Below, one piece after another: positions 2,884 through 32,883 of a DNA stretch of 35,000 nucleotides (positions within the stretch are counted from its first letter, which is position 1; each line of letters starts with the position of its first letter). Location of the stretch: contig CACEXM010000002.1 in NCBI GenBank assembly GCA_902563555.1, positions 1 through 35,000 of the forward strand, given 5' to 3'. The DNA is from an uncultured Pelagibacteraceae bacterium. Its GTDB lineage: Bacteria; Pseudomonadota; Alphaproteobacteria; Pelagibacterales; Pelagibacteraceae. Made by a program: the position numbers and the translations under genes. Below the pieces are notes generated by a model. The model saw nothing but the letters and a program-made list of their open reading frames with translations, had not been told where the DNA came from and made no database searches.

Positions 2884-3678
2884 ATGAAGATTTTATTAAT
2901 ATCAGGAGATCACAAAAGACATAAAAATTTTGCATCTGTTATTGACTCAAAATTTGAGCTTGTATCTTGGATTGTTGAAAAGAGAGAAGATAGTCTTCCA
3001 AAAATTTATAGGTTCAAGAATAAAATTGATAAAACTAACTTTAATTATCACTTTAAAAAAAGAGATGAATATGAAAAAAAATATTTTAAATATAATGAAA
3101 AAAAAATTAATCAAAAAAAAGTTAAAATTACAAAAATCAAAAAAAATATAAAGAAAATCAAATCTATATTAAAAAAATATAAACCCAAAATTTTAATTAC
3201 TTTTGGATCTTCAATTATACCCAATGAATTGCTAAAGAATTTACCCAAATATTCTATTAATTTACATTCAGGATTAGCACCATATTATAAGGGCTCTGCG
3301 TGCAACTTTTGGCCTATATATTTTTTACAACCAAATTTTGTTGGAATGACTTTCCACTATCTAAGTAATAAATTAGACTCTGGAAAAATAATACATCATA
3401 GTATTCCAAAATTAAAACTTAACGAAAATATTCATTCTTTGGCATGCAGAGCGCAAATAAAAGCTTTTAAAGATTTTGTAAAAATTGTTGATAAAATAAA
3501 AAAAAATAATTTGAGTGGAAAATCATTAGATATTAACGGAAAACTTTTTCAAAAAAAAGATTTTAAACCAGAGCACTTAAGAATAGTTTACAATACATTT
3601 AAGGATAGTATTATTAATTTATTTTTAAAAAAAAAAATTTTAACCAACAAACCTATAATTGTAAATTATAATGATTAA
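2884..3678 (+). CDS. Formyltransferase family protein (probable amino-sugar N-formyltransferase)
   Basis: Predicted to transfer a formyl group from 10-formyl-tetrahydrofolate to the amine of a nucleotide-linked amino sugar or aminocyclitol. The catalytic triad of the methionyl-tRNA-formyltransferase fold is visible: Asn126 and His128 in SINLHSGLAPYYKGS, and Asp165 in the LDSGKII loop. The chain of 264 residues lacks the C-terminal tRNA-binding domain of Fmt, as in sugar formyltransferases such as VioF or WlaRD. Residues 45-100 form a very Lys-rich linker. It is the first gene of the + strand operon, and its stop overlaps the next start by eight bases. Together with the downstream Gfo/Idh dehydrogenase and DegT aminotransferase it suggests oxidation, transamination and then N-formylation of one sugar. 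Confidence 0.8.
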   Translation: MKILLISGDHKRHKNFASVIDSKFELVSWIVEKREDSLPKIYRFKNKIDKTNFNYHFKKRDEYEKKYFKYNEKKINQKKVKITKIKKNIKKIKSILKKYKPKILITFGSSIIPNELLKNLPKYSINLHSGLAPYYKGSACNFWPIYFLQPNFVGMTFHYLSNKLDSGKIIHHSIPKLKLNENIHSLACRAQIKAFKDFVKIVDKIKKNNLSGKSLDINGKLFQKKDFKPEHLRIVYNTFKDSIINLFLKKKILTNKPIIVNYND

Positions 3679-4768
3679 TATTGCTTTGATTGGATGTGGT
3701 AGAGTCTCAGAATTCCACTGCAAAGCAATAAAGAAACAGAAAAAGCTAAAATTAATTGCGTGTTGTGATCTTGACATAAATAAAGCAAAATATCTTGCAA
3801 AAAAGTATAAAGCTCAAAGTTTTTCAAATTACAATGAAATGCTAAAAAATTTGCCACAAATTGATATTGTTGCAATCATTACTCCATCTGGAATGCATTA
3901 TAAACACGCTAAATCTATAATAATTAAATATAAAAAAAATTTAATTGTCGAAAAGCCTATTTGCTTAAAAACAACTAATTTGATTAATTTATTTAAAATC
4001 GCTAAAAATAAGAGAGTTAAGATTTATCCAATTTTCCAAAATAGATACAACAAAGCAGTAAGACGAGTAAAGTTAGCTTTAAAAAATAATGAGTTAGGTA
4101 AAATAAGAACAATTAATGTGACAGTAAGATGGTGTAGGCCTCAAAGATATTATGATTTATCTACTTGGCGTGGTACTTACTCTCATGATGGTGGAGCATT
4201 ATCAAACCAAGGAATACATTATGTAGATATACTACAATATTTATCTGGAGGAATACTTGAAGTAAGTTGTATAGCTAGAACACTAGGAGCAAATATTGAG
4301 GTTGAAGATACCGCATTAGGACTATTCAAGCTCAAATCTGGTGGTATAGGATCTTTAGAGGTTACTACATCTGCAAGACCTGATGATTTTGAAGGCTCTC
4401 TAACAATTGTTGGATCAAAGGGATTAGCAAAAATATCAGGGTTAGCTTTAAATAAAATTGAAATCTTCTCACCATCACCTAAAGACATAAAAAAATTTAG
4501 CGATAATTTTTCTGATTTACCTGATAGAGGAAGAGTTTATGGTCGTGGGCATTTTGATACCTATGCTGATATTCAAAAAGATATCTTTACTAAAAAAAAG
4601 TATCCAATAGATTTCGATCAAGCCTACAAATCAATTAACTTTTTAAATTCTTTATATTCTTCATATGAAAACAAAAGTAAATGGATAAAATTAAACAAAA
4701 CAATTATTTCTAAGAAATTAGGAAGAGTAAACAACAGAATATCAAAATTATATACCACGGATAATTAA
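3671..4768 (+). CDS. Gfo/Idh/MocA family oxidoreductase, WlbA/WbpB-like
   Basis: NAD(P)-dependent sugar dehydrogenase. A Rossmann motif (IALIGCGRVSEFH, residues 4-16) opens the protein. The catalytic Glu-Lys-Pro of the family follows near residue 95 (VEKPICL), and the substrate-domain motif with Asn-Gln-Gly-xx-His-Tyr (SNQGIHYVDIL) lies near residue 180. This last motif and the C-terminal tail (SKWIKLN...KKLG) resemble UDP-GlcNAc(A) 3-dehydrogenases of the WlbA/WbpB type, which oxidise C3 ahead of a DegT aminotransferase. The next gene is exactly such an aminotransferase, starting one base inside this stop codon. A cyclitol (inositol-type) substrate is an alternative because of the cyclase later in the operon. 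The oxidoreductase at the right edge of the window shares the same tail, so the two look like paralogues. Confidence 0.85.
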   Translation: MINIALIGCGRVSEFHCKAIKKQKKLKLIACCDLDINKAKYLAKKYKAQSFSNYNEMLKNLPQIDIVAIITPSGMHYKHAKSIIIKYKKNLIVEKPICLKTTNLINLFKIAKNKRVKIYPIFQNRYNKAVRRVKLALKNNELGKIRTINVTVRWCRPQRYYDLSTWRGTYSHDGGALSNQGIHYVDILQYLSGGILEVSCIARTLGANIEVEDTALGLFKLKSGGIGSLEVTTSARPDDFEGSLTIVGSKGLAKISGLALNKIEIFSPSPKDIKKFSDNFSDLPDRGRVYGRGHFDTYADIQKDIFTKKKYPIDFDQAYKSINFLNSLYSSYENKSKWIKLNKTIISKKLGRVNNRISKLYTTDN

Positions 4769-5964
4769 TGAAAAAATTAGCAATTGATGGTGGAAAACCT
4801 CTAAGGCCTAAAGGTTTTCCTGAAAGATTTCCCTACGATAAAAGGGAATTAGATATAATTACAAAAATAATGAAGCTTTCTATAAAAACTGGAATTCCAT
4901 TCAGATACAATGACAAATATTCAAAAATTTACGAAAAAAAATTTATTAAATTTATGAATGGTGGTTTCTGTAATTTAGTGAATTCTGGCACAAATGCTTT
5001 ACTTGCAAGCATAGCATCTTTGAAGCTAAAAACAAAAAGTGATATTTTGGTACCATGTTTGACAGATGTAGGATGTGTTACCCCAATCATTATCTTAGGT
5101 TTTAAACCTATACCAGTAGATATCTGTAAAAAAAACTTTAATGTGAGTCTAGATGAAATAAAAAAAAAAATTACAAAAAATACAAGTGCTGTAATAGTGG
5201 CTCATATTGGTGGGGAAGTAACCGATATAGATAAAATCTCAAAGTATTTGAAATCTAAGAAAATAAAATTAATTGAGGACTGTTCTCAATCACATGGTGC
5301 TATGTATAAAAAAAATAAGGTGGGTACTTTTGGAGATATTTCTTTTTTTTCAACAATGTCATCTAAGCTTCATACAACTGGAGGTACAGGGGGAGTAATT
5401 TTCTCAAGATACAAAAATTTGATACATAACTCAAAACTTTTTTCCGATAGAGGGAAATATTTTCAAAATTCAAAGTTTACTGGCAAATATATTTCTACAG
5501 GCTTGAATTTAACAATTGATGAATTATCAAGTGCAATTGGAACGATCCAGCTAGATAAATTATCTTTAACAATTAAAAGAACTAATTTTATTGGCGAGTA
5601 TATTAAAAAAAAACTTATCGATAATAAATCACCGTCAAAAATATCTGGTCAATATAAAAATACTTTTAATGTATACTGGTTTCTAAGAATAACTCTCGAT
5701 TTAACAAAAATAAAAGTAAGTAAAAAGAAATATTGTGAAGCTTTGAAAAAGGAAGGTTTAAGTTTATCTGAAAAATATATATATAATCCTTTTTATCAAA
5801 AGTGGATAAAAGATCATAAATTCAAAAAAAAACTTAAATTTCCTAATTACGATCAAAGCCTAAAAAAGAACTATGTCATTTTTATCAGAGAAAATTATAA
5901 CAAAAAAGATGTACAAGACATTATAAGAATTATAAAAAAAGTTGACAATGAATTTAAAAAATAA
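4768..5964 (+). CDS. DegT/DnrJ/EryC1/StrS aminotransferase (AHBA-synthase/inosose-aminotransferase type)
   Basis: PLP-dependent aminotransferase acting on a keto-sugar or keto-cyclitol. The internal aldimine lysine is Lys200 in TMSSKLHTTGGTGG, and the PLP-ring Asp is Asp171 in IEDCSQSHG. The N-terminal LAIDGGKPLR...FP motif is typical of the DegT subgroup that includes 2-deoxy-scyllo-inosose aminotransferases and 3-amino-5-hydroxybenzoate synthase, and is usually absent from PseC/ArnB-type members. At 398 residues it is full length. It follows the Gfo/Idh dehydrogenase with a one-base overlap (TAATG), a classic oxidation-then-transamination pair. The cyclase gene at 9991 in the same operon supports, but does not prove, an aminocyclitol product. 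Confidence 0.88.
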   Translation: MKKLAIDGGKPLRPKGFPERFPYDKRELDIITKIMKLSIKTGIPFRYNDKYSKIYEKKFIKFMNGGFCNLVNSGTNALLASIASLKLKTKSDILVPCLTDVGCVTPIIILGFKPIPVDICKKNFNVSLDEIKKKITKNTSAVIVAHIGGEVTDIDKISKYLKSKKIKLIEDCSQSHGAMYKKNKVGTFGDISFFSTMSSKLHTTGGTGGVIFSRYKNLIHNSKLFSDRGKYFQNSKFTGKYISTGLNLTIDELSSAIGTIQLDKLSLTIKRTNFIGEYIKKKLIDNKSPSKISGQYKNTFNVYWFLRITLDLTKIKVSKKKYCEALKKEGLSLSEKYIYNPFYQKWIKDHKFKKKLKFPNYDQSLKKNYVIFIRENYNKKDVQDIIRIIKKVDNEFKK

Positions 5965-6871
5965 GTCAGTTAAAGTAGCTGTTTGTTCAAGAACTTTTTA
6001 TAAAAATTTATATTTAAGAAATGAATTAAAAAAACTAAAAAAAATAATCAAATTTAATAAAACAAATAAAACTCTTCGAAATAAAGAATTATCTAATTTC
6101 ATTAGTGACTCGGAAATAACTATAATTGGTTTAGAAATAATAAATAAATCTATAATTAATAAATTGCCTAATTTAAAAACTATTATAAAGTACGGTGTTG
6201 GTTTAGATAAAATTGATTTAAATTATTTAAAAAAAAAAAATATTAAACTTATTCATTTTCCTGGTTTCAATAAAAGATCTGTATCTGAGCTTGTTTTAGG
6301 TTATATTCTCGCAAAATCTAGAAATCTTTACGAACATTTTAAGGAGACCAAAAACAAAAATTGGGAAAATAAAACTGGAAACTTAGTAACTAAAAAAAAA
6401 ATTGGAATTATAGGTTGTGGAAATATTGGGAAAGATTTAATTAAAATTCTTAAACCATTTGATAATGAAATATATGTTAATGATATCAAAAATATTAATA
6501 ATTATGCAAAAAAAAATAATCTTAAAAATTCAAGTAAAAAAATTATTTTTAAAAATTGTGACTTTATCTCTATCCATATTCCTTATAACAAAAAAAATAG
6601 AAATATAATTGACCAGAAATATATTTCTTTGATGCGAGATAATTCAACCTTAATAAATACCTCAAGAGGAAATGTTGTTAACGAAAATGATCTTTATAAA
6701 AATTTGAAAAAAAAAAATATATTCTCTTATTTTGATGTTTTAAGTATTGAACCATTAAATAAAAATAATAGACTTATTAACCTTAAGAATTTTTTTCTTT
6801 CACCACATATAGGTGGATCTACATTGGAAAGTATATTAGAGGGCGGTCGCTTATGTATAAAAAGAATATAA
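5948..6871 (+). CDS. D-isomer-specific 2-hydroxyacid dehydrogenase (SerA-like)
   Basis: NAD-dependent reductase or oxidase of 2-hydroxy/2-keto acids. Visible features are the Rossmann motif GIIGCGNIGKD, the substrate Arg in LINTSRGNVV, the catalytic Glu in SIEPLN, and the catalytic His in SPHIGGST near the C-terminus. A TTG at 5942 is in frame, but the ATG at 5948 is the better start and gives 307 residues, with no C-terminal ACT domain. It overlaps the aminotransferase gene by 17 bases. Possible jobs are making a 2-keto acid precursor for the KdsB-like activated sugar, or recycling 2-hydroxyglutarate if the upstream dehydrogenase works like WbpB. Both are inference. Confidence 0.85.
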   Translation: MNLKNKSVKVAVCSRTFYKNLYLRNELKKLKKIIKFNKTNKTLRNKELSNFISDSEITIIGLEIINKSIINKLPNLKTIIKYGVGLDKIDLNYLKKKNIKLIHFPGFNKRSVSELVLGYILAKSRNLYEHFKETKNKNWENKTGNLVTKKKIGIIGCGNIGKDLIKILKPFDNEIYVNDIKNINNYAKKNNLKNSSKKIIFKNCDFISIHIPYNKKNRNIIDQKYISLMRDNSTLINTSRGNVVNENDLYKNLKKKNIFSYFDVLSIEPLNKNNRLINLKNFFLSPHIGGSTLESILEGGRLCIKRI

Positions 6872-7632
6872 ATTTTTCAAAATTAAATATTTATGGTTTT
6901 GTACCAGCTAGAATGGCTGCCACTAGATTTCCTGGTAAACCTCTTAAAAAGATTTTAGGCAAGCCTATGATCCAGCATGTATACGAAAAAGCAAAAAAGT
7001 TCAAACACTGGAAAAATCTCTTTCTTACTACTTGTGACAAAGAAATAAATGATTTTGCAAAAAAAAATTCAATACCAAATATAATGACATCAAAAAAACA
7101 TAAAAGATGTCTTGATAGAGTTTATGAAGCAGCAAATAAAACTAAGGGTATAAAAAATAATGATTTAATTGTTTGTGTTCAAGGTGACGAACCAATGCTC
7201 AAACCAAATATGATAATAAATGCTATAAAACCTATACTAAAAAAGAAGGTTAATTGTACTGTTCTTGCAATGGACATAATTCATAAAGATCAATTTTTAA
7301 ATAAAGATATTGTAAAAATTATTCATGATGAAAATGATGAGGTGCTTTACACCTCTAGGGCACCAATACCGTATGCAAAAGAGTTTAATAGAAAAATTGG
7401 TGCAAAAAGAATTTATGGAATATTTGTATTCAAGTGGTTTTTTTTAAAAAAATTTTATCGTACACCTGAAAGTAATTTGGAAATTATAGAATCTTGTGAC
7501 TCAAATAGAATTTGTGATCATGGAAGAGGACAATTCATTGCAAGACAAAAATATGTTGCATCCTTCTCTGTTGACACACCGGCAGACTTAAAAAAAGTAG
7601 AGAATTTTTTGAAAAAGAATGAAAAAAATTAA
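6853..7632 (+). CDS. kdsB: CMP-KDO synthetase-like cytidylyltransferase
   Basis: Activates a 3-deoxy-2-ulosonic acid, or similar sugar acid, with CTP to give a CMP-sugar. The KdsB signature is clear: PARMAATRFPGKPL near the N-terminus for nucleotide binding, VQGDEPML for magnesium and CTP, and TSRAPIPY. The C-terminal part departs from housekeeping KdsB: the usual Leu-Glu-Gln segment is replaced by an IIESCDSNR...DHGRGQF stretch, so the substrate may not be KDO itself. It is 259 residues long, overlaps the dehydrogenase gene by 19 bases and the next gene by 14. It sits in an operon without KdsA or KdsD, so it is unlikely to be the cell's lipid-A KdsB. Eight-amino-KDO or another carboxylated sugar is possible. 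Confidence 0.85.
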   Translation: MYKKNINFSKLNIYGFVPARMAATRFPGKPLKKILGKPMIQHVYEKAKKFKHWKNLFLTTCDKEINDFAKKNSIPNIMTSKKHKRCLDRVYEAANKTKGIKNNDLIVCVQGDEPMLKPNMIINAIKPILKKKVNCTVLAMDIIHKDQFLNKDIVKIIHDENDEVLYTSRAPIPYAKEFNRKIGAKRIYGIFVFKWFFLKKFYRTPESNLEIIESCDSNRICDHGRGQFIARQKYVASFSVDTPADLKKVENFLKKNEKN

Positions 7633-8635
7633 TGTTGCAATTGTAGGGTTTGGTTTAGTTGGAAATAGAAGAAAGAAATATATTGATAAAAATAAAAAAT
7701 TTAATTTAAAATTTATTAGCGATAATAGATTTAATAAAGACTTCAAAAGAAAAAATATTTTTTTTTACAAAAACTATAAAAATATTCCAATTAAAAATTT
7801 GAATGCTGTATTTATAACTTTACCAAATTTCTTAGCTCCTGTTGTAACTAAATATTTTTTAAAAAAGAATATTCACATTTTTTGTGAAAAACCACCTGCA
7901 AAAAATTTGGCAGAAATAATTGATGTATATAAAATTTATAAAACTAAAAAAAATCTAAAATTAAAATATGGTTTTAATCATAGATATCATCTTTCAGTAC
8001 AATTGGCTAAAAAAATAATCGACAAAAAAAAAATTGGTCAAATTATAAATATCAGAGCTATTTATGGTAAAAGCAAGATTTTGAATTTTTCAAAGAATAA
8101 TTGGAGATCAAAAAAAAAATTAGCTGGTGGTGGTATTCTTTTAGATCAAGGAATTCATATGCTTGATTTAATTAGATATTTAGCTGGAGATTTTGAAGAA
8201 TATAAAAGTTTTATATCTAATAAATATTGGAAGTATGATGTTGAGGATAATGCATTCGCAATAATGAGAAATAAACAAGGAATTATTGCCTCAATTCACT
8301 CAACAGCAACACAATGGCAACATAAATTTAATTTAGAAATAATATGCTCAAAAGGATCAATTATTTTAGATGGAATACTTTCAAGTACAAAAACTTATGG
8401 AAAAGAGCAGCTCAGGATTTATCCTTCTGCTGAACCTTATACATACAAAAACAACAAGAAAACAAAAATATTTTACTTTAATAACGACCCATCATGGGAA
8501 CTGGAAATTAAAGAATTTGCAGATGTTATTACTTATAATAAAGCAGTCAAATATGGTACGATTGATGAGGCTATAAAAGTAATGAGAATGATCCAAAAAA
8601 TTTATAAAAATGATGAGAGAGTTTTAAAAATATGA
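7619..8635 (+). CDS. Gfo/Idh/MocA family oxidoreductase
   Basis: Second NAD(P)-dependent sugar or cyclitol dehydrogenase of the operon. The N-terminal Rossmann motif is VAIVGFGLVGNRR, the family's Glu-Lys-Pro is in CEKPPAKN, and the substrate-domain motif with catalytic His is LLDQGIHMLDLIRYLAG. It differs from the 3671-4768 protein in having DQGIHMLD rather than NQGIHYVD, so it probably oxidises or reduces a different position or substrate. The 338 residues are full length. It overlaps the gene before by 14 bases and the gene after by four bases (ATGA), so translational coupling is likely. Between the KdsB-like and SIS genes, it probably works on the same branch as those. Confidence 0.85.
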   Translation: MKKINVAIVGFGLVGNRRKKYIDKNKKFNLKFISDNRFNKDFKRKNIFFYKNYKNIPIKNLNAVFITLPNFLAPVVTKYFLKKNIHIFCEKPPAKNLAEIIDVYKIYKTKKNLKLKYGFNHRYHLSVQLAKKIIDKKKIGQIINIRAIYGKSKILNFSKNNWRSKKKLAGGGILLDQGIHMLDLIRYLAGDFEEYKSFISNKYWKYDVEDNAFAIMRNKQGIIASIHSTATQWQHKFNLEIICSKGSIILDGILSSTKTYGKEQLRIYPSAEPYTYKNNKKTKIFYFNNDPSWELEIKEFADVITYNKAVKYGTIDEAIKVMRMIQKIYKNDERVLKI

Positions 8636-9243
8636 AATCAATTGAAAAGTTAGCATATAAAGAGAAAAATATAGAAAATTTTAGTAAAAGATATTTAGAA
8701 AGAATAAATCTTATCTTTAAAAAAATAAATTTAAAAGAATTATCTAAGCTAGAAAATGAATTTTTGGATTTGAGAAAAAAAAATTCTACATTATTTGTTT
8801 TTGGTAATGGTGGTGGAGCTGCTACTGCAATGACGATGGCAAATGATTTAGGTTTTGATGTATTAAAAAAAACAAATAAAAAAACATTTAAAATTATTTC
8901 ACTTAACGATAATAGTTCTGTTGTAACTGCAATTGCAAATGACAAAAGTTATGATGAGATTTTTATGAATCAGTTAAAAATACATTTTAATAAAAAAGAT
9001 AAAATTTTAATTTTTTCAGCTTCTGGAAATTCTAAAAATTTGATTAAAGCAGCTAAATGGGTCAAGAAAAAAAAAGGTAAGGTAATAAGTATTATAGGTT
9101 TTGATGGTGGTAAACTTAAAAAGCTCAGTGATACTTACATTCATATTCCAACTGAAAGAGGTGAATACGGGCCTGTAGAAGATTTTCAATTAATGATAAA
9201 CCATATATTGGCACATTGGTTTCAAAAAAATTTAAAGAGATAA
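8632..9243 (+). CDS. SIS-domain phosphosugar isomerase, GmhA-like
   Basis: Predicted aldose-ketose phosphosugar isomerase. The SIS fold is shown by FVFGNGGGAATAM near residue 58, FSASGNSKNLI in the phosphate-binding loop, and the C-terminal GPVEDFQLMINHIL helix that carries catalytic residues in GmhA-like proteins. GmhA converts sedoheptulose 7-phosphate to D-glycero-D-manno-heptose 7-phosphate, and 203 residues fit that family. The family link to sedoheptulose 7-phosphate is notable because the cyclase two genes downstream belongs to a superfamily whose members cyclise that same sugar. The start codon overlaps the preceding stop as ATGA. Confidence 0.85.
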   Translation: MKSIEKLAYKEKNIENFSKRYLERINLIFKKINLKELSKLENEFLDLRKKNSTLFVFGNGGGAATAMTMANDLGFDVLKKTNKKTFKIISLNDNSSVVTAIANDKSYDEIFMNQLKIHFNKKDKILIFSASGNSKNLIKAAKWVKKKKGKVISIIGFDGGKLKKLSDTYIHIPTERGEYGPVEDFQLMINHILAHWFQKNLKR

Positions 9244-9248
9244 GGTTA

Positions 9249-9953
9249 ATGCGTATTAATTTTAGAGGAAAAACTGCATTAATTACTGGGGCATCAGATG
9301 GTATAGGCAAAACTATATATAATGATTTTAAAAAACTTGGTGCTAAAGTAATTGGAACTTGTAATCAAAAAAAAATGAAAGGACTTATCCAAGTCGATTT
9401 CAATGACACAAGATCAGTAAAAAAATTTCTAGAAAAAATAAATAAATATAAAAAAATTGATATTTTGATAAATAATGCAGGAACTAATATTTTAAATCCA
9501 GTCAATAAATTGATTGAAAATGATATTTATAAATTAATTAAAATTAATACTGTTGGACCGACATTGATAACAAAAGTAATCTCTAAAAAAATGATAAAAA
9601 ACCGGTATGGTAGAATTATTAATATGTGCTCTATATTTGGTGAGATAACAAAAGAGAAAAGAGTTTTATATAATATTACAAAATTTGGATTAAATGGTCT
9701 TACAAAAGGATCTGCTATTGACCTTGCTAAAAGTCAGATATTAGTAAATTCTATTTCTCCAGGATTTGTTTCGACCAAACTAACAAAAAAAATTTTAGGA
9801 AAAAAAATAAATACATTAAAAAAAGAAATCCCATTAAAAAGATTAGCTTCTTCAGATGAAATTTCTAAGATAGTTTTATTTCTTGCCAGTGATCTTAATA
9901 CCTATTTGACTGGACAGAATATAATTGTAGATGGAGGCTTTACATCTAAGTAA
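9249..9953 (+). CDS. SDR family NAD(P)-dependent oxidoreductase
   Basis: Classical short-chain dehydrogenase/reductase. It has the cofactor motif TGASDGIG, the structural NNAG, the catalytic Ser in NMCSIFG, and the YxxxK pair in YNITK. The PGFVSTKLT segment follows, and the C-terminal YLTGQNIIVDGG is the classical FabG-like ending. A TTG start at 9216 is possible, but the ATG at 9249, preceded by GAGATAAGG as a Shine-Dalgarno-like sequence, places the chain start directly before the first beta strand and gives 234 residues. The product fits keto reduction of a sugar or cyclitol intermediate made by the neighbouring isomerase and cyclase. The substrate cannot be read from the sequence. Confidence 0.9.
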   Translation: MRINFRGKTALITGASDGIGKTIYNDFKKLGAKVIGTCNQKKMKGLIQVDFNDTRSVKKFLEKINKYKKIDILINNAGTNILNPVNKLIENDIYKLIKINTVGPTLITKVISKKMIKNRYGRIINMCSIFGEITKEKRVLYNITKFGLNGLTKGSAIDLAKSQILVNSISPGFVSTKLTKKILGKKINTLKKEIPLKRLASSDEISKIVLFLASDLNTYLTGQNIIVDGGFTSK

Positions 9954-9990
9954 AATTATATCAAAAAAATTTAAGTGTTATAGTAATTTA

Positions 9991-11046
9991 ATGAACAAGA
10001 TTAAAATAAAATCTAAAATAAAAAGTTACGAAATTATATTTAAAAAAGTCAAGAAATTTAAAAATGAAGAAAATTTCGTTTTTTTTATTGATTATATTTT
10101 TTTTAAAAAAAATTCTTTTTTGTTTGATAAAAAAATAAAAAAAATTCTTATTGTTGCAAATGAAAAAACAAAAAGTTTTGAAAATTTAAATAAAATATTT
10201 GACAAATTTTTCAAACTAAACCCAAATAGATTTACAACATTAGTATGTGTTGGTGGCGGAGTATTGCAAGATGTCTCAGCATTTATAGCATCAATTACAT
10301 TTAGAGGACTTAATTGGATATTTTATCCTACAACCTTGCTAGCCCAAGGGGACAGTTGTATAGGTGGAAAGACATCAATAAATTATAAAGGTTCAAAAAA
10401 TCAAATCGGAAATTTTTATCCACCAAACAAAATATTCATTGATACTAATTTTTTAAATACTCTTAAAAAGAACGATATATTGTCAGGATACGGTGAAATG
10501 GCTCATTATTACTTGCTGTCAAGTTTTAAAGAGCAAGTATTTTTTAAAAAAAGAACAGAAGAAATTTTAAAAAATAAAAAGTTTAACTTAAGAAAAACTA
10601 TTAAAAACTGTTTAGGTATAAAAAAAAAGTTTATTGAGAAAGATGAATTTGACAATGGAAAAAGATTACTGCTAAATTACGGTCACTCTTTTGGTCATGC
10701 ACTTGAAAAATATACAAATTATAAAGTACCTCATGGATTAGCAGTATCGATAGGATTAGATTTGGCAAATTATATTTCATATAAAAAAAAGTATTTGGAT
10801 AAAGAAAATTATCTTTTTATGAAAAGCATATTGGCCTCAATAAACAAAAAAATCTTTATTAAAAATTTTAATAATCATAAATTTTTGAAATATTTAGAAA
10901 AAGACAAAAAAAATACGCAAAATCATTTTGGAGTAATTTTAACTCGTGGACCCAAAAAAGCATTTTTTTTAAAAATAAATAAAAAAGATAAAAACTTTCA
11001 AAATTTTATAAAAGAATATTTTTTTAAAAAAGAAATAAATAGATAA
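9991..11046 (+). CDS. 3-dehydroquinate synthase-family sugar phosphate cyclase
   Basis: NAD- and metal-dependent cyclase of the dehydroquinate-synthase superfamily. Counting from the ATG at 9991, GGGVLQD is at 88-94, FYPTTLLAQGDSCIGGK at about 111-127, the metal Glu is in SGYGEMAH, and the two metal His are in NYGHSFGHALE and VPHGLAVSIGL. The Glu/His/His metal set is therefore intact. Where dehydroquinate synthase has a Lys in its AExxK motif, this protein has His (GEMAH). An upstream ATG at 9931 would add 20 residues and overlap the SDR gene by 23 bases, but the fold seems to begin at 9991. An operon of sugar enzymes argues against housekeeping AroB. A sedoheptulose-7-phosphate or amino-sugar cyclase is more likely. 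Confidence 0.85.
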   Translation: MNKIKIKSKIKSYEIIFKKVKKFKNEENFVFFIDYIFFKKNSFLFDKKIKKILIVANEKTKSFENLNKIFDKFFKLNPNRFTTLVCVGGGVLQDVSAFIASITFRGLNWIFYPTTLLAQGDSCIGGKTSINYKGSKNQIGNFYPPNKIFIDTNFLNTLKKNDILSGYGEMAHYYLLSSFKEQVFFKKRTEEILKNKKFNLRKTIKNCLGIKKKFIEKDEFDNGKRLLLNYGHSFGHALEKYTNYKVPHGLAVSIGLDLANYISYKKKYLDKENYLFMKSILASINKKIFIKNFNNHKFLKYLEKDKKNTQNHFGVILTRGPKKAFFLKINKKDKNFQNFIKEYFFKKEINR

Positions 11047-11047
11047 A

Positions 11048-12730
11048 ATGAATTTTTTAATAGAATTATTTAACTATTCCAAAATTCATTTTGAAAAGAA
11101 ATTTTTTATTATTTTTACTTTAGTTTTAATTTCTGCCCTATTAGATTTTTTTGCCATAATCAGTTTTATTCCAATAATTAATATTCTTTTTCCTGATACT
11201 ATATCTGGTAGTGAAAAAATTTTAGAATTTTATCTCAGATTTTTTGATTTACTCAACATTGATTATAATGCGGTATCTTTAAGTCTTTTAATAATCTTAA
11301 TTTTTTTTTTAGTAAAATTAATTGAATTCTTCTCAGAATACTATTCTTTAATTTTAACTCAGAATGTAAAATATAAATTGCAAAAAGAATTTTTATTTAA
11401 ATTAAAAAAATCTTTTTTAGGTTATTTTATAAATATTAGAATAGGTGAAATAACAAACTTATATAACAGAGAAATACATTTTGTTGCAGAATCATATAGG
11501 TTGTTATTAATAATTATCGCAAGACTAATAATTTTCTTTTTACTATTAATATTTTTATTGATTAATGAGACCCTTTTAACATTTTCAACTTTAATTTTAA
11601 CTTTTCTATTAATTTTAATTATGAAAAAATTTTATAATATAATTGAAAATAATGCTAATGATCTTATTAATGAACAGCAAAAAGTATCCTCTAGTTTTAC
11701 TTTTTTTATAAACAATATTTTTTCGATAAGAAATACTATATATCAAGACAGTCACATAAATGAAATTAAAGACCAAACAAAAAATTGGATAAAATATTTA
11801 ATTAAAAATATTAGATATAAATTAATTGTTAGCTCTTTTATAGAACCGATATTTATAATTATGATAATATTTAGTATTTTTATAATTTTTCAAATACAAT
11901 CTGTAATTCCTGCAAATTACTTAGTAAATCTAGGAATTCTTCTAAGATTTGCGCGACACTTTTTATCAATTCAAAACTCTTATATAAAAATTTTAAATTG
12001 GAAAAGATACGTAAAGTCAAAAAAATTTCATGATAAATTGTTACAAGACTTTTTAGAAGATCAAGCGAACCAAAAAGAAAATATCTCAGAAATTTCAGAA
12101 ATTTTAATTGAAAAGCTTAATATATCTTATGAGGATAAAACAATAATCAAAAATTTTAATATTAAATTGGAAGTGCCGTTTTGTTTAAAAATAGATGGTA
12201 AAAATGGTTCTGGCAAAACAACTTTAGTTAGAGCTATTATGGGTTTAATAAAATTAGATAATGGAAATATCAAATTTAATAAATCAGATATAAACCAATT
12301 AGATAAAAAAACTTTATCTAATAAAGTATGTATTTTAGATAAAAATCCCCTTATTATTAAAGGCTCATTTTTAGATAATATTAAATTTAATCCTAAATCA
12401 ATACCTAATAAAAAAGAAATAATAAAATTTATTAAACTTTTTGATTTATCGGATATATTTAATGAAAATAATCTTGATGATAAAATTATTGAAGAAGAGG
12501 GAAAAAACTTATCTCAAGGACAAATGCAAAAAATTTCAGTAATTAGAGCTCTTGTTAATCAATATGAGGTTCTAATACTTGATGAGGGATTATCAAATAT
12601 TGACGAGAATAATGAAAAAAAGATTATGAAATACTTAATTCAACTTTATGATGAAAAAAAAATGAACTTAATCTTTATTTCACATAAAACTAATTTTGAT
12701 AATTATTTTAAGCAAAAGGTAAGTCTTTAA
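11048..12730 (+). CDS. ABC transporter, fused permease and ATPase (flippase-like)
   Basis: Half-size ABC exporter, probably a PglK/MsbA-like flippase that moves a lipid-linked glycan across the inner membrane. Residues 1 to about 320 carry roughly six membrane segments, and the ATPase domain starts near 345. The Walker A motif GKNGSGKTT is at 384-392, the signature LSQGQ at 488-492, Walker B is LILDEG with catalytic Glu, and the switch His is in FISHKTN. The Q-loop is odd: where most exporters have Val-Pro-Gln-(Asp)-Pro, this one reads ILDKNP near 428, so the glutamine is missing. It starts one base after the cyclase stop. As the only transporter in the window it is the likely exporter for the glycan assembled here. 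Confidence 0.88.
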   Translation: MNFLIELFNYSKIHFEKKFFIIFTLVLISALLDFFAIISFIPIINILFPDTISGSEKILEFYLRFFDLLNIDYNAVSLSLLIILIFFLVKLIEFFSEYYSLILTQNVKYKLQKEFLFKLKKSFLGYFINIRIGEITNLYNREIHFVAESYRLLLIIIARLIIFFLLLIFLLINETLLTFSTLILTFLLILIMKKFYNIIENNANDLINEQQKVSSSFTFFINNIFSIRNTIYQDSHINEIKDQTKNWIKYLIKNIRYKLIVSSFIEPIFIIMIIFSIFIIFQIQSVIPANYLVNLGILLRFARHFLSIQNSYIKILNWKRYVKSKKFHDKLLQDFLEDQANQKENISEISEILIEKLNISYEDKTIIKNFNIKLEVPFCLKIDGKNGSGKTTLVRAIMGLIKLDNGNIKFNKSDINQLDKKTLSNKVCILDKNPLIIKGSFLDNIKFNPKSIPNKKEIIKFIKLFDLSDIFNENNLDDKIIEEEGKNLSQGQMQKISVIRALVNQYEVLILDEGLSNIDENNEKKIMKYLIQLYDEKKMNLIFISHKTNFDNYFKQKVSL

Positions 12731-12735
12731 ATTAA

Positions 12736-13872
12736 ATGAAGCAGACTAATTATAGTAGACATTTTCTAGATAAGTCAGATTATAACTTTTTATTATCGGC
12801 GGCAAAATCTTCTAATATTACTCAAGGAAAATATGTTGAAACTTTTGAAAAAAATTTAAAAACTTTTTGTGGAGCAAACTATTGCTTAACTACTAATAGT
12901 GCCTCTACAGCATTATATCTATGTGTAAAATCTATTTTAATCAAAGAAAAGAATATTAATAAATTTTGTTATATTTCTCCAAATACCTACGCAGCAACAG
13001 CTAATTGTATTATTTTGAATAATTTAAAAGTAAATTTTATAGATATAGATGAGACTTTAAATATGTCTCCAGAGAAATTGGAGGAAGCTTTAAAAAAAAG
13101 AGGTAAAATTAGAGGTAAGACTATTGTAATTGTAACTCATTTTGCAGGCAACCCATGCGATTTGAAAAAATTTAAAAAACTTAGTCTCAAGTATAATTTA
13201 ATAATCATTGAAGACGCAGCACATGCTCTTGGTTCAGAATATGAGGGTCAAAAAATAGGTGGAGGAAAATATTCTGATTTTATTGTTACTAGTTTTCATC
13301 CAGTCAAAACTATTACAACTGCTGAGGGGGGGGCTATTTTTTTAAAAGATAAAAAAACTTATGAAATTTTAAATTGTTTGAGATCAAACGGTATTTTAAA
13401 AAAAAAATTTTTTAACAAGAAATATTATGATCAAATATATTCAAGTCTAAATTTTAGACTGAGTGATTTGCATGCAGCTATTGGAATTAGTCAATTAAAA
13501 AGAATAAAAAAATTTGTAAGCTATAGAAATCAAATTTCAAATAAATATAAAAAAGAAATAAATAATAAAAATATTTTCTATCAAAACATTACAAAAAATT
13601 CATTATCTAGTTTTCATTTATTTATCATAAGAATTAAAAATATTAATTTTAAAAATAAATTTTTATTTATGAAAAAGGTAGCTAAGTCTGGTATCAATTT
13701 TCATAATCTTTATATTCCAATATTTTATTTCAAACTTTACAGAAATAAAAAGTACAACTGTCCAAATGCTGAAAAATTTTATAAAGACTCAATTTGTTTA
13801 CCTATTTTTTACAAAATTAAAAATTCAACTATAAAAAAAATCATAAAAAAACTTAATGAATTTAAAAACTAA
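12736..13872 (+). CDS. pseC: PseC-like UDP-4-keto-6-deoxy-sugar aminotransferase
   Basis: PLP-dependent DegT-family transaminase, most like PseC, which aminates C4 of the PseB product on the way to pseudaminic acid. Lys191 in SFHPVKTITTAEGG forms the PLP aldimine, IIEDAAHALGS holds the cofactor Asp, and SPNTYAATANCI is PseC-like. The length of 378 residues is normal. PseB and PseF lie about 5 kb away on the other strand, so the pathway is split. The codons just after the PLP motif contain a run of eight G residues at 13326-13333. The stop overlaps the next gene by 17 bases. Confidence 0.88.
   Translation: MKQTNYSRHFLDKSDYNFLLSAAKSSNITQGKYVETFEKNLKTFCGANYCLTTNSASTALYLCVKSILIKEKNINKFCYISPNTYAATANCIILNNLKVNFIDIDETLNMSPEKLEEALKKRGKIRGKTIVIVTHFAGNPCDLKKFKKLSLKYNLIIIEDAAHALGSEYEGQKIGGGKYSDFIVTSFHPVKTITTAEGGAIFLKDKKTYEILNCLRSNGILKKKFFNKKYYDQIYSSLNFRLSDLHAAIGISQLKRIKKFVSYRNQISNKYKKEINNKNIFYQNITKNSLSSFHLFIIRIKNINFKNKFLFMKKVAKSGINFHNLYIPIFYFKLYRNKKYNCPNAEKFYKDSICLPIFYKIKNSTIKKIIKKLNEFKN
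13326..13333 (+). repeat. Homopolymeric tract of eight G within pseC-like gene
   Basis: Eight consecutive G residues lie in codons 197-200 (Glu-Gly-Gly-Ala) of the PseC-like aminotransferase. The two glycines use GGG, although most glycines in the window use GGA or GGT. A G8 run is not expected by chance in DNA this poor in G+C. A one-base change would truncate the enzyme after the PLP lysine, so this is a candidate slippage (phase-variation) site. Confidence 0.6.
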
Positions 13873-14884
13873 TTTAGATGTTTTATATTTAACTGAAAAT
13901 TTAAATAATTATAAATCATCAGAGTATCAATTAGACTTTCTTAATAATTTAAAAAATAATTTCAACATTTATGAATATGGTCCAGGTTATAAAAATTTCG
14001 ATTATAAGAAAAATTTATCTGATTTAGAAAATGATACACAAAAAAAATTTGATTTAATTTTTTTAGGACATTCTTTTTTATCAGATAGATCTGAATTTAA
14101 ACTTTTAATGAATAACATCCTAATAAATATTAAAAAAATTCCCAAAGTTATGTTTTTAAATAAGGAGTATGTGAATTTACGAGAGAAACTGAGATTTATT
14201 GAGGAAAATAATGTAAATCTTGTTTTTTCTCATCATCATTTAGCATTATACTTAAATAAGTTTTACAATAAGAAATTTATTTTTTTACCTTTTGCGACAA
14301 CATTTAATAATTTTGAAAAAAAAAACGATAAAAAATATGATCTTTGTTTTATAGGTATATTAAAAAATTTGAATAAAAAATATAATCACACAAATATCAG
14401 AGAAGAAATAAGAGATGCTCTTTTTTTTAGTTTTAAAAATATAAATCTTTTTAAAAAAAAAAATTTTTCTAGTTTCAATTTTTTTTGGACAAATCACCCA
14501 CGTAATAAATTTGAGGGAATTTTATCAAAAATTTTTTTTAAAAAATGGTTAACAAAAAAAGACTATCAAAATATTATTTCTTCTAGTAAAACAACTTTTA
14601 ATACCCCATCACCTTACAATATAATTGGACCTCGATATTATGACTCTCTTGCTTGTGGTACACCTATCATATGTCCCAAAAAAAAAATTTATAAACATTA
14701 TTTTGATGAAACAGACCTTGTGCAATTTGAAAATAAAGACGATTTTTTTGTAAAATTTAAATATTTACTAAATAATAAAAATTATCTAGAAGAGATATCC
14801 AAAAATTTGAAAATAAAATATAAAGATGTTAACTATAAAAAAAGAGTAGAAAAAATTCACTACCATATCTTGAATGAATTATAA
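13856..14884 (+). CDS. Glycosyltransferase, GT-B fold (CgeB-like/GT1-type)
   Basis: Probable cytoplasmic glycosyltransferase that adds a sugar to the growing surface glycan. The C-terminal half shows the donor-binding pattern of GT-B enzymes: YDLCFIGIL begins the second Rossmann domain and GPRYYDSLACGTPIICP is the family's Glu/Asp-x7-Gly region. This resembles CgeB/spore-maturation-type glycosyltransferases, where an Arg-x-(F/Y)-(D/E)-xxxxG motif is common. The first half is less conserved and Asn/Lys-rich. The ATG start overlaps the PseC-like gene by 17 bases and the next gene begins six bases after the stop. Donor and acceptor cannot be deduced. Confidence 0.65.
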   Translation: MNLKTNLDVLYLTENLNNYKSSEYQLDFLNNLKNNFNIYEYGPGYKNFDYKKNLSDLENDTQKKFDLIFLGHSFLSDRSEFKLLMNNILINIKKIPKVMFLNKEYVNLREKLRFIEENNVNLVFSHHHLALYLNKFYNKKFIFLPFATTFNNFEKKNDKKYDLCFIGILKNLNKKYNHTNIREEIRDALFFSFKNINLFKKKNFSSFNFFWTNHPRNKFEGILSKIFFKKWLTKKDYQNIISSSKTTFNTPSPYNIIGPRYYDSLACGTPIICPKKKIYKHYFDETDLVQFENKDDFFVKFKYLLNNKNYLEEISKNLKIKYKDVNYKKRVEKIHYHILNEL

Positions 14885-14889
14885 AAAAT

Positions 14890-15993
14890 ATGCTACTTAT
14901 ATTCTCCAGAAATGTTGGTCTCAAAACTTGGGATAAAGTAGGTAATCTTTCAAGAGAGTTAACCTTGTATAACAAACTTATAGAAAAAAAAATATTCAAG
15001 AAAATTTTTTTTTTTACATATGATAGACAAGATGTAAATTTTTCAAAAGAATTAAAGAATCAGAATGTTCTTTCAAAGGATATTTTTGTTTTTTCTCCTC
15101 CAATAAATATAAGATTTAAAATTTTAAATAATTTTTTTTGTTTGTTCTATTTCATATTTATATTTTTAAAAATATCTAATCAAGTGAAAATAATTAAAAC
15201 AAATCAAATAGATGGTAGTTATCTGGGTGTTTTATTAAAAATTTTTTATAAAAAAAAATTATATATTAGATCTGGATATAATATTATTAAGAGAGATAAA
15301 GTTTTAAATTTTAATTTCATAAAAAAATATTTTAATATTCTACAATTTAAGTTATCTTTAAAATTTGCAGATGAAATATCTGTAAGTAATCTTTTTGAAA
15401 AAAGATATTATTCTATAATTCATAAAAAAAACCCAAATTTAATTTATAATTATATTGATACAAATTTATTTTATAATTTTAATAAGAAAAGAAAAAATGA
15501 TTTTTTATATATAGGAAGAATTTCAAAGGAAAAAAATATATCTGAAATTATTAATGTTTTTAAAGATAACCCTAAATTTAATTTAGACTTGTACGGTCAA
15601 AAAAAAAGTAGTCTGGATGATATTAATTTTGTTGGCTCAAAAAACATAAATTTTCATGACCCAGTGCCTAATAATTTAATTCCAAATCTTCTTAATAAAT
15701 ACAAATTTTTAATTTTGTTATCAAATTTTGAGGGGTTATCAAAAACCATTATTGAAGGTATGAGTTGTGGTATATTTTGCGTAGTATCAAATTTGACCGA
15801 AAATAAATTTTTAATTAAAAATAACCTAAATGGATATATTTTGAAGAAAGGTTCCGTGCTTAATCTAAAAGATGTTTTAAACTCTGAGAAACAAAATCAG
15901 GAATATATTGATTATAACATGAATTTTGTTCATGAATATTTTTCTTTTGAAAAATATTTAGAAAGAGAAATATCAATTTTAAATAAAATTTGA
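14890..15993 (+). CDS. Glycosyltransferase family 4
   Basis: GT-B glycosyltransferase. The second domain begins with FLYIGRISKEKNISEII, the usual GT4 linker and beta strand with the conserved Gly-Arg. The donor-site region follows as SNFEGLSKTIIEGMSCGIF, with the Glu-x7-Glu pattern that binds the nucleotide sugar (E of FEG and E of IIEG). The chain of 367 residues is full length. The N-terminal domain contains one hydrophobic stretch near residues 78-95 that may hold it at the membrane. It sits between two other putative transferases in the operon, so this half builds the repeat unit. Specificity is unknown. Confidence 0.85.
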   Translation: MLLIFSRNVGLKTWDKVGNLSRELTLYNKLIEKKIFKKIFFFTYDRQDVNFSKELKNQNVLSKDIFVFSPPINIRFKILNNFFCLFYFIFIFLKISNQVKIIKTNQIDGSYLGVLLKIFYKKKLYIRSGYNIIKRDKVLNFNFIKKYFNILQFKLSLKFADEISVSNLFEKRYYSIIHKKNPNLIYNYIDTNLFYNFNKKRKNDFLYIGRISKEKNISEIINVFKDNPKFNLDLYGQKKSSLDDINFVGSKNINFHDPVPNNLIPNLLNKYKFLILLSNFEGLSKTIIEGMSCGIFCVVSNLTENKFLIKNNLNGYILKKGSVLNLKDVLNSEKQNQEYIDYNMNFVHEYFSFEKYLEREISILNKI

Positions 15994-16003
15994 ATTTACA
16001 AAA

Positions 16004-17104
16004 ATGAATCATACTTTTATAGTTACTCATAGCGCTGGTGAACTAGATATAATCCTTCCAATAATTGTTGATTTACTAAAAAAAAAGAGTTCAAAAATTA
16101 ATATAATTATTACCAAAAAAGATATTTTTAACTCAATTAAGATAGATAATACATATCAAAAAATTTTATATTCAAAAAATATTTCATATAAATATACACC
16201 TCTTTTAAATAAATTTGATCATGGAGAATTAAATTTTTTTTTAAATTTAATTTATAAATTTATTTTATCTTGTTCATTTTTACTCAAAAATTTTAATATT
16301 TTACGATCAAATTATATTTATATCGAAACTACAAATCAAATTTCAAAAGATTTAGTTTTTTATATTTTAAACAATATATTTAAAAAAAAATTTTATATTC
16401 TTCATCACGCACACAGTTACAATATTGCTAATGATAATTTTAAATTGAATCCTACAAAACCAATTAATTATGAATATTTAATTTTTTCAAAAAAACATAT
16501 TGGATGGTGTAATTCAATGGGCTACAAAAAAAATAAAATTATCGGGTTTCCAAAATTTTTTCTGAATTGGATTAAAGAAATATCTAAATACGATAATTTT
16601 AGAAAAAAAAATAATTATGTAATTTTTTCTAGGCCTCCTCATAAATTTTATATGTCAAAAAAAAATTACAAATATTTACTTAATTCCTCATTAGAAACAA
16701 TTTTAAAAATTGATGCTACAGCTAATATATATATTAAACCTCATCCAAGAGAAACCTTTGATCTATTTAAAAGAAATATGAAAAAAGAATACATCGATAA
16801 CAAAAATATAAAATTCACTAACTTAAATTCAATGACTTTAAGTAAGAATGCAAAATTAATAATATCTTTTTGGACTTCAGCTATATTGGAAAGTATTATA
16901 TTTAACAAGCCTGCGATTGAATATCATATTGAGAATAAAAATTTTAAAAAAGTCGAACCAAAAGGCTCTCTCTATAAGTTATTGGGGTTTACAACTGTTA
17001 AAAATAAAAAAGAACTTTTTTATTTTCTTAATAATCCTAAAAAGATAAAAAAAATAAACAAAAATTTCTTTGAAGAATTTAATTTCAAAAGATTCAGAAT
17101 ATAA
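16004..17104 (+). CDS. Putative GT-B glycosyltransferase or glycerophosphotransferase-like protein
   Basis: Not assigned to a named family with confidence. The C-terminal half has IYIKPHPRET and, about 70 residues later, IISFWTSAILESIIFNKPAIEY. A Lys-Pro-His-Pro motif followed by a Ser-x-Ser/Thr-Ala-xx-Glu-(S/A) loop is shared by CDP-glycerol glycerophosphotransferases, capsule (Kps)-type transferases and polysialyltransferases. The N-terminus starts with a beta strand, HTFIVTHSAGELDII, compatible with a GT-B fold, and one hydrophobic stretch lies near residues 80-95. It is the last gene of the long + strand operon and converges on the sulfotransferase gene at 17130. Transfer onto the glycan is inferred from these motifs and the context. 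Confidence 0.55.
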   Translation: MNHTFIVTHSAGELDIILPIIVDLLKKKSSKINIIITKKDIFNSIKIDNTYQKILYSKNISYKYTPLLNKFDHGELNFFLNLIYKFILSCSFLLKNFNILRSNYIYIETTNQISKDLVFYILNNIFKKKFYILHHAHSYNIANDNFKLNPTKPINYEYLIFSKKHIGWCNSMGYKKNKIIGFPKFFLNWIKEISKYDNFRKKNNYVIFSRPPHKFYMSKKNYKYLLNSSLETILKIDATANIYIKPHPRETFDLFKRNMKKEYIDNKNIKFTNLNSMTLSKNAKLIISFWTSAILESIIFNKPAIEYHIENKNFKKVEPKGSLYKLLGFTTVKNKKELFYFLNNPKKIKKINKNFFEEFNFKRFRI

Positions 17105-18820: not shown

Positions 18821-19504
18821 CTATTTAGACTTTATCTTATTTTTATGCAAAATTTTTAACATTTCCAAATCTTCTTTAGTGTCAACATCAACTGACATTT
18901 TTTTATCTAAATAAAAATAGTTAAATTTTTTATTTTTTATAATTTTATAATCTTTTACTTTAAACCAATAGAATTGACCAGCATCGTGATAATATTTTTT
19001 CATATCTTGAGTCCTTTTCCTTGAGTATTTAAAATTTAAAAACTCTACTAAACCCTCTCCTTTTGACTTCATCGCAATATCTAAAGGTGCTGAATAAGAA
19101 CAAATTGATAATAAATAATTAGCTTTACTTTTTTTAAATTTTTTAAAACTTTTTATCAAAATTTTTTCAGTGATTAATATGCTTGTTGGGTAAAAATAAC
19201 AAATAGAATAAAGTTGAATTTTTTCTTTTTTTGCATACCTGAGAAAATGGCTCATCACATCTTCATCAGTTGATTTGTCTGAAGAGTACCTTTTTGGTCT
19301 TAAAAATGGAACTTTAGCGCCTACTTTTTTCACAATGTTAGAAATTTTACGGGAGTCGGTTGAAACATAAATTACATCGAAAATATTAGAATTTTTTGCT
19401 GTTTGAATAGTCCAATTGATGATTGGTTTATTATCTATTTTTAATATATTTTTGTTTTTAATTCTTTTCGAACCTGATCTAGCTGGTATTAGACATACAT
19501 TCAT
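18821..19504 (-). CDS. pseF: Pseudaminic acid cytidylyltransferase, PseF-like
   Basis: Activates a nonulosonic acid with CTP to CMP-nonulosonate. The nucleotide loop IPARSGSKRIKNKNI is at residues 6-20, STDSRKISNI follows, then VPFLRPKRYSSDKSTDED. The YHDAGQFYWF motif near residue 190 is characteristic of PseF rather than NeuA or LegF. The length of 227 residues is normal. It is the first gene of a three-gene - strand unit with pseB and a sulfotransferase, and is divergent from the GT52-like gene at 19551. No intact synthase (PseI/NeuB type) was found in the window to supply its substrate. Confidence 0.9.
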   Translation of the reverse strand: MNVCLIPARSGSKRIKNKNILKIDNKPIINWTIQTAKNSNIFDVIYVSTDSRKISNIVKKVGAKVPFLRPKRYSSDKSTDEDVMSHFLRYAKKEKIQLYSICYFYPTSILITEKILIKSFKKFKKSKANYLLSICSYSAPLDIAMKSKGEGLVEFLNFKYSRKRTQDMKKYYHDAGQFYWFKVKDYKIIKNKKFNYFYLDKKMSVDVDTKEDLEMLKILHKNKIKSK

Positions 19505-19550
19505 AATAATATTGACTATAAAATATATTAATCATAATAAAAAGTTTTTA

Positions 19551-31362: not shown

Positions 31363-31372
31363 AAATTATTAA

Positions 31373-31894: not shown

Positions 31895-31948
31895 TATTAT
31901 ATTTTTATATAGATTGATAATTTTTTTCTTATGAATTTAATTTTATTA

Positions 31949-32815: not shown

Positions 32816-32883
32816 TAAAAACCTTTCTCATAAATAAACTTTTATTTTACAAATTTGAAACAAATTATAAATTCAATCAATAG

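Follow-up and report, generated by a model that had tools for sequence, protein, structure and literature searches.

An AroB-related cyclase cassette in a SAR11 surface-polysaccharide island and the CMP-activated carbocyclic acid it may make

Sedoheptulose 7-phosphate (S7P) cyclases belong to the same superfamily as dehydroquinate synthase (DHQS, AroB) and work with aminotransferases and dehydrogenases, and it is in such company that we describe here an AroB-related cyclase, encoded on the forward strand at 9931-11046 of a 35 kb stretch of DNA (hereafter the window). It opens contig C2 of an incomplete SAR11 (Pelagibacteraceae) genome (G000; 934 kb in 25 contigs, 78% complete). An original prediction for this DNA had read the genes at 2884-11046 as a candidate aminocyclitol or carbasugar module of valiolone-type logic, yielding an N-formyl-aminocyclitol for a surface polysaccharide. 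We propose, giving it a little under an even chance, that the operon makes a cytidine monophosphate (CMP)-activated, amino-substituted carbocyclic acid for the SAR11 surface polysaccharide, its substrate and product both being predicted from the genes.

Other described systems share parts of this arrangement. The routes to CMP-8-amino-Kdo (Kdo, 3-deoxy-D-manno-octulosonate), which we take to be that of KdnA, KdnB and KdsB, and to CMP-pseudaminate resemble it in amination by a DegT protein and in CMP activation by relatives of KdsB or PseF, and differ in that neither, to our knowledge, includes an AroB-like cyclase. Carbocycles have a precedent in bacterial surface glycans in bradyrhizose and caryose, which are carbocyclic O-antigen sugars; we know of no link between these sugars and the window cyclase. 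The best family model for the cyclase is TIGR04425, 'AroB-related putative sugar phosphate phospholyase (cyclizing)', a hypothetical equivalog of NCBIfam, although at 352.8 bits the protein stays under the cut-off of 400; we know of no tested function for this family. EboD (PMC5133447) stands for a group of sugar phosphate cyclases that likewise have no tested function; it is found in a conserved operon and has a proposed cyclitol product. An AroB-like cyclase in a conserved operon is what the window has too, whereas the ebo operon is described there with a UbiA-type prenyltransferase and without a CMP-transferase. Fourteen fingerprint residues distinguish S7P cyclases according to PMC4426668, and our own comparison with those enzymes rests on five pocket positions. 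A term search of PMC4743980 gave no mention of dehydroquinate, phosphoheptose or bradyrhizose biosynthesis. Among the open-licence matches listed there was no report on the module or on a tested TIGR04425 enzyme, which is weak evidence of absence (the accession TIGR04425 was not itself searched), and the phrase 'sugar phosphate phospholyase' was not found in the open-licence library searched. What is already known is thus the superfamily and the TIGR04425 name; as far as our searches show, the conserved CMP-linked cassette, the pocket logic, the presence in SAR11 and the spread in viral contigs with T4-type genes are new within that literature.

The cyclase matches the DHQ synthase family (120.7 bits) and DHQS_C (105.6 bits) domains, and scores 250.4 bits against the NCBIfam aroB model, short of its cut-off of 305. 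In a maximum-likelihood tree of 48 cyclases, 19 variants, the window protein among them, lie on one side of a 100/98 branch; clade-mates L042, L046, L047, L048 and L051 are above the TIGR04425 cut-off of 400. S7P cyclases (four rows, 100/99) and 2-deoxy-scyllo-inosose (DOI) synthases (two rows, 100/100) sit in separate clades, the non-AroB references being plasmid-borne: four annotated S7P cyclases, two annotated DOI synthases and two rows that group with the latter. L052, an ordinary AroB (376.1 bits to aroB), was used as such in the trees; L040 (same contig as L033) and the fragment L049 were left out, and L002 and L004 represent L035 and L040. Because a long-branched Bacteroides-type AroB (L070) adjoins the variants and the Pelagibacter AroB is also close, the variants are nearer to AroB than to the S7P and DOI types, with some doubt about where exactly the clade is rooted. 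By this placement the cyclase is not the housekeeping AroB but a separate paralogue in its own clade: the phylogeny sets it apart from AroB, and also from the valiolone-type and DOI clades to which the aminocyclitol reading would lead. The AlphaFold2 model (mean pLDDT, a per-residue confidence score, 86.4) is matched best by DHQ synthases in Foldseek (5hvn, TM-scores 0.81/0.85), with DOI synthase 2d2x at rank 15. The true start is probably Met21, at about 9991, because residues 1-20 fall below a pLDDT of 50 and two relatives begin there. In the family, 163 of 197 genomes have a TIGR04425 match at E <= 0.001, led by G077 (389.7 bits), G000 (352.6) and G069 (349.9), the next score (274.6) being at the level of ordinary AroB; phylum-wide, a threshold of E <= 1e-80 leaves 8 of 398 genomes, four of them above the cut-off.

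The evidence on the substrate comes from the pocket. Eleven residues hold 3-deoxy-D-arabino-heptulosonate 7-phosphate (DAHP) in the DHQS of S. aureus, according to PMC6262012. Aligned on 1xag, the window cyclase retains ten of them, with Lys181 replaced by His192, so that it resembles AroB in fold and pocket while differing at this lysine, in residues invariant among the variants and in its glycan-synthesis context. The eleventh position is His in 18/19 variants and Lys in one (L051), against Lys in all 35 AroB, all four S7P cyclases and all four DOI-synthase-group rows. Five others (Lys221, Arg235, Asn239, His246 and Lys314) are the same in 19/19 variants and 35/35 AroB, and altered in 4/4 S7P cyclases (Met, varied, Asp, Pro and varied, respectively); in the DOI-synthase-group rows Arg235 is replaced by Gly/Ala, Asn239 by Glu and Lys314 by Asn, where the window keeps Asn and Lys at the latter two. 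We take Lys221 and Arg235 to be carboxylate-binding residues, and His268, also retained in the variants, to be a zinc ligand. Gln113, Trp129, Cys143, Ser149 and Pro164 are invariant in 19/19 variants and rare or absent in the 35 AroB. Since the variants keep AroB residues that the S7P cyclases have changed, the pocket argues for a carboxylated ketose 7-phosphate over S7P as the probable substrate, and the S7P/valiolone logic of the original prediction does not hold at these five positions.

The same gene set recurs around related cyclases. Profile hidden Markov models were run within 9 kb of 25 bacterial cyclases, the window included; several of these loci end at contig ends, and in L036 (28% N) and L050 (48% N) absent genes may be masked. 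The short-chain dehydrogenase/reductase (SDR) is the next recognised gene to the cyclase, on the same strand, at 24/25 loci, and a SIS isomerase (on the cyclase strand), a Gfo/Idh dehydrogenase and a CMP-transferase occur at 19/25 each. A 2-hydroxyacid dehydrogenase is present at 12 loci, a Gfo/Idh gene adjoining an aminotransferase at nine, an HpcH/HpaI aldolase at five and a formyltransferase at three (the window, with strong matches in L034 and L050; L042 has a weaker one of 32 bits). The core of SIS isomerase, SDR, cyclase, CMP-transferase and Gfo/Idh is recurrent in several phyla, being mostly complete beyond Pelagibacteraceae in Deltaproteobacteria, Desulfobacterales, Desulfosudis, Melioribacteraceae and Gemmatimonadota; elsewhere in the phylum, L115, L117 and L118 represent further families that carry it, L118 without the CMP gene in the available sequence. 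Because the same neighbours flank the cyclase in other phyla, chance clustering of the operon is not a serious concern. A gene of the PF04199 'cyclase'/arylformamidase-like family (read on L042) follows the CMP-transferase in the distant loci L042, L043 and L047.

Viral contigs carry the module as well. A scan of IMG/VR returned 134 relatives of the cyclase, and the best 80 of these (34-48% identical) gave the neighbourhood counts: SDR at 74 loci, DegT at 61, a thiamine pyrophosphate (TPP) enzyme at 39, and SIS and CMP-transferase at 37 each. The TPP-type module, seen in 39 of loci L156-L198, joins an acetolactate-synthase-like TPP enzyme to the SDR and cyclase, often with DegT, and in L184 a NeuB-like gene adjoins it. 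Viral and bacterial variants interleave in one clade of 37 rows (22 viral, from the 80; 100/97), with AroB rows as neighbours outside. Capsid and terminase genes were sought in 50 of the 80 viral records (L119-L146 and 22 others): a T4-type capsid gene, Gp23, turned up in 17 and a Terminase_6N match in 13. Long contigs with such matches include G602, of SIS/CMP type and 165.6 kb in length, and G636, of TPP type and 328 kb in length; the remaining records may be fragments, other phages or misassigned. No PHROGs family matched the two cyclases tried (window and L042), and the 15 matches in GenBank phage records are all below 60% identity, none covering 80% of the query.

The eleventh pocket residue follows the type of gene set. 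From 97 cyclases (window, 16 bacterial and 80 viral; L033, L035, L049, L054 and L115-L118 were left out), 79 remained once near-duplicates (identity of 85% or more) had been taken out. Of these, 43 combine His with SIS/CMP sets and 28 Lys with TPP sets, none combines His with a TPP set, five have Lys with SIS/CMP sets and three fall elsewhere (Fisher p 4.8e-16, with related sequences not independent). Four of the five Lys exceptions (L152, L155, L166 and L178) have no SDR; the fifth is L148. Because His or Lys tracks the partner genes, we suggest that this position senses which substrate is bound and that two or more products come from the family, and the split offers a direct handle on the substrate of TIGR04425-type cyclases. 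An aminotransferase was found in 70/97 loci, counted anywhere in the fetched stretch, so that some will serve other sugars; an aminated product is supported by this frequency.

In the window, genes from 2884 to 17104 all point the same way, and neighbouring open reading frames, called mechanically, overlap by no more than 28 bases or lie no more than 10 bases apart. All enzymes named in the original prediction are present at 2884-11046, on one strand and with profile matches, their frames overlapping by up to 28 bases. In order, the genes of this interval are a formyltransferase (2884-3678; PF00551, 39.4 bits, cut-off 26.1), Gfo/Idh dehydrogenase 1 (3671-4768; best PDB matches 3q2i and 3q2k, 193.9 and 177.8 bits, both presumably WlbA), a DegT/DnrJ/EryC1/StrS aminotransferase (4768-5964; 200.4 bits), a SerA-type D-2-hydroxyacid dehydrogenase (5942-6871; PF02826, 154.5 bits), in whose alignment we take an Arg-Glu-His triad to be visible, a KdsB-like CMP-transferase (6853-7632), the core Gfo/Idh dehydrogenase 2 (7619-8635; PF22725, 98.4 bits), a SIS-domain sugar-phosphate isomerase (8632-9243; PF13580, 57.5 bits), the SDR reductase (9216-9953; PF13561, 152.9 bits) and the cyclase. 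The 2-hydroxyacid dehydrogenase and the KdsB-like enzyme, although inside this interval, had not been named. An exporter does stand beside the operon, as predicted for a flippase, its precise type being an ABC exporter of MsbA/PglK type (11048-12730; PF00005 80.1 and PF00664 45 bits). A second, PseC-like DegT aminotransferase (12736-13872; PseC 337.2 bits, cut-off 423.5) probably serves another sugar. Two glycosyltransferases on the cyclase strand (13856-14884, PF13524, 45.6 bits; 14890-15993, PF00534, 68.9 bits) follow in this surface-glycan island, and a reading frame without Pfam match ends the series.

The KdsB-like enzyme points to an activated, presumably ulosonate-like product, which formed no part of the earlier reading. 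It scores 213.2 bits against NF003952 (cut-off 193) and 151.8 against TIGR00466, slightly under 155.2; G000 holds three KdsB-like proteins, one of them above the kdsB equivalog cut-off, and a better TIGR00466 match (182.5 bits) lies elsewhere in the genome. That the cassette would yield a CMP-activated unit is indicated by the CMP-transferases in 19/25 bacterial and 37/80 viral sets together with genes of sialyltransferase type. GT29 is a sialyltransferase family, and in the viral module L128, which is surrounded by glycosyltransferases and also holds a CMP-transferase/cupin protein and class III and DegT aminotransferases, a GT29-like gene (27.6 bits, cut-off 23) adjoins the CMP-transferase; in the window, a polysialyltransferase-like protein of CMP-donor type (19416-20657, +; PF07388, 22.3 bits, slightly under the cut-off of 23.3) is a candidate user of the unit.

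Read together, these genes would act as follows. The SIS isomerase, with the Gfo/Idh and 2-hydroxyacid dehydrogenases where present, would supply a carboxylated, DAHP-like 2-ketose 7-phosphate, either DAHP itself or a 2-keto-heptonate 7-phosphate. Oxidation, phosphate elimination and ring closure by the cyclase would give a dehydroquinate-like cyclohexane carboxylate, and the operon has no phosphatase, as expected if the cyclase eliminates the phosphate. The SDR would then reduce a keto group, Gfo/Idh-1 and DegT would oxidise and aminate another position, and the formyltransferase would cap the amine; its N-x-H ... D-x-G pattern, which we take to be the catalytic Asn-His-Asp, is retained in 3/3 homologues, so N-formylation is likely. 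The KdsB-like enzyme would attach CMP, and glycosyltransferases and ABC exporter would place the unit on the surface. The order of steps and the point of CMP attachment are inferred, and for this strain an N-formylated, quinate-like ring is our best reading. Of the predicted N-formyl-aminocyclitol, an amino-bearing carbocycle thus stays plausible, with aminotransferase and formyltransferase both present, while the route from S7P fails. If carbocyclic, the residues could resist depolymerases, as they would have no ring oxygen for ordinary glycosidases. More broadly, and only tentatively, the product may be a new kind of unit for glycans, namely a carboxylic acid of aminocyclitol type, activated by CMP and mimicking Kdo or sialic acid, whose genes travel on a mobile cassette of SAR11, other bacteria and T4-like phages, with a His (SIS/CMP) and a Lys (TPP) type making two products.

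Several points weigh against the carbocyclic acid. With His in place of Lys the pocket itself is changed, and ring closure might be altered or lost. Normal glycosyl transfer from a carbocyclic CMP ester, which has no ring oxygen, would be chemically odd, and with six CTP_transf_3 matches in the genome the CMP may be destined for something other than the ring. Not all loci conform: on the cyclase strand, SIS, Gfo/Idh and CMP genes are lacking from four of them. Three, L116, L051 (Omnitrophota) and the truncated L054 (Victivallaceae), still have SDR and cyclase, while in L053 (Micromonospora) the only matches are weak and on the opposite strand. The 2-hydroxyacid dehydrogenase, confined to 12 of the 25 bacterial loci, is absent from the closest relative, L034, and in the viral loci it occurs in 2/80 and Gfo/Idh in 4/80. 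The substrate-supply steps are uncertain because the loci differ in this way, and we no longer regard these two dehydrogenases as essential steps, an idea weakened by viral sets that mostly have neither. Finally, we know of no member with known activity.

The rival that best withstands these data is an ordinary pyranose amino-ulosonate, CMP-activated, in whose making the AroB relative would only oxidise, eliminate phosphate and reduce, leaving a deoxy-keto sugar acid. We think it unlikely, though it accommodates a CMP-transferase very near KdsB and above its subfamily cut-off, the HpcH/HpaI pyruvate aldolase (an enzyme that makes 3-deoxy-ulosonates) at 5/25 loci and the loss of the pocket lysine in 18/19 variants. 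Less easily explained by it are the retention of the lysine in the TPP-type sets, of His268 and of all ten remaining pocket residues, one of them the Asn to which PMC6262012 links ring opening and aldol condensation.

A second alternative keeps the carbocycle and shortens the route: the cyclase would make 3-dehydroquinate or an epimer from cellular DAHP, and DegT would aminate the ketone to an amino-quinate, which is then activated. The nearly complete DAHP pocket suits this, and the window holds an AroE-like gene and, 21 kb away, a DAHP synthase (282.7 bits, above the TIGR01361 cut-off of 267.75) that may raise supply; a relative of the latter lies beside the module in viral locus L152. Yet the six other genomes with an above-cut-off DAHP synthase have no cyclase score at variant level (one of them, G104, 62% complete, has no cyclase match at all), G069 and G077 carry the cyclase without such a DAHP synthase, and the SIS isomerase is left without a role, so we rate this route as distinctly improbable.

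This DAHP synthase belongs to a second cassette at 30361-34647 on the reverse strand, with pyruvate-kinase-like, APS-kinase-like, PseF-like CMP-transferase and AroE-like genes. The synthase is accessory, being above the cut-off in 7/197 family genomes, G000 included. In five of these other genomes (L110-L114) it is accompanied in every case by AroE-like and Gfo/Idh genes, with a CMP gene, PseF-like or related, in the vicinity. A functional tie to the cyclase operon was considered and dropped, because the synthase recurs as a cassette of its own at L110-L114, in genomes where no cyclase reaches the variant score. Its product may be a CMP-activated seven-carbon ulosonate. In L111 (G074) the cassette adjoins 2-hydroxyacid dehydrogenase, KdsB-like and HpcH-like genes, an apparent sign of reshuffling of CMP-linked modules between SAR11 islands.

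The aminocyclitol pathway of the original prediction, from S7P (valiolone-type) or of DOI type, draws on the linkage of GmhA-like, Gfo/Idh, DegT and SDR genes to the cyclase, and fares worse still, as S7P cyclases and DOI synthases keep to their own clades with typical residues that the window does not share, and the pathway has no place for a CMP-transferase. The isomerase does have a SIS/GmhA-like domain, but one that has diverged (GmhA family score 96.8 against a cut-off of 209.45). Taking Glu65 and His180 as the catalytic residues of E. coli GmhA, the SIS proteins have Asp at the presumed Glu65 position in 15/15 aligned, and the presumed His180 is retained in the Pelagibacter rows and L048 and absent in L042, L043, L046 and L047. 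The DegT protein (4768-5964) forms a clade of three with those of L034 and L050 (100/100), outside PseC/ArnB/WecE at 94/95, slightly under the support threshold. It shares a side with the inosose aminotransferases across a fork that is drawn open at 94/95, in a tree without AHBA (3-amino-5-hydroxybenzoate) synthase; its predicted inosose kinship therefore stays unproven. Its best PDB match is 7b0m (133.7 bits), with the 2-deoxy-scyllo-inosose aminotransferase 2c7t at 96.9 and the 8-amino-Kdo transaminase 5k8b at 89.7.

That the cyclase is a spare housekeeping AroB lying by accident in the island is hardly credible: it is the sole DHQ synthase family gene in the G000 assembly and its pocket is nearly complete, but it falls in a separate clade and scores under the aroB cut-off, the genes that normally surround aroB are absent from the assembly too, and G069 and G077 carry both genes. 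In two single-contig relatives (L079 and L080; genes named by eye) aroB is flanked by aroK and a CobS-like gene, def being close by, and none of these three neighbours has a match in the 78% complete G000, although def and the CobS-like gene were recovered in 4/4 other genomes (G017, G069, G003 and G077); the aroK family search had no positive control in relatives. Because the neighbours are missing here and found in relatives, the absence of an ordinary aroB is very probably an assembly gap. In G077, of the same family, and G069, of the same genus, the variant coexists with an ordinary AroB copy (262.6 and 241.7 bits) close to the CobS-like gene and def.

The setting of the operon is compatible with a known SAR11 island. 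PMC4053759 places hypervariable region HVR2 between the 5S and the 16S/23S genes. Beyond the window's right edge, at roughly 40.2-41.7 kb on the contig, there is a 16S rRNA gene, a position that fits HVR2, although a scan of 72 kb, some of it N, reported neither a 5S nor a 23S gene. A frame of 1741 codons beside the 16S gene was taken for an artefact (locus 26% N). The island also carries a pseudaminate-like route, made up of the PseC-like aminotransferase at 12736-13872, a Polysacc_synt_2 protein (17772-18791) and PseF (18821-19504; 209.8 bits, above the family cut-off of 205.7). Sulfotransferase-family proteins at 1725-2789 and 29160-30206, together with the APS-kinase-like protein (APS, adenosine 5'-phosphosulfate) at 31373-31894, indicate that the surface glycan may be sulfated.

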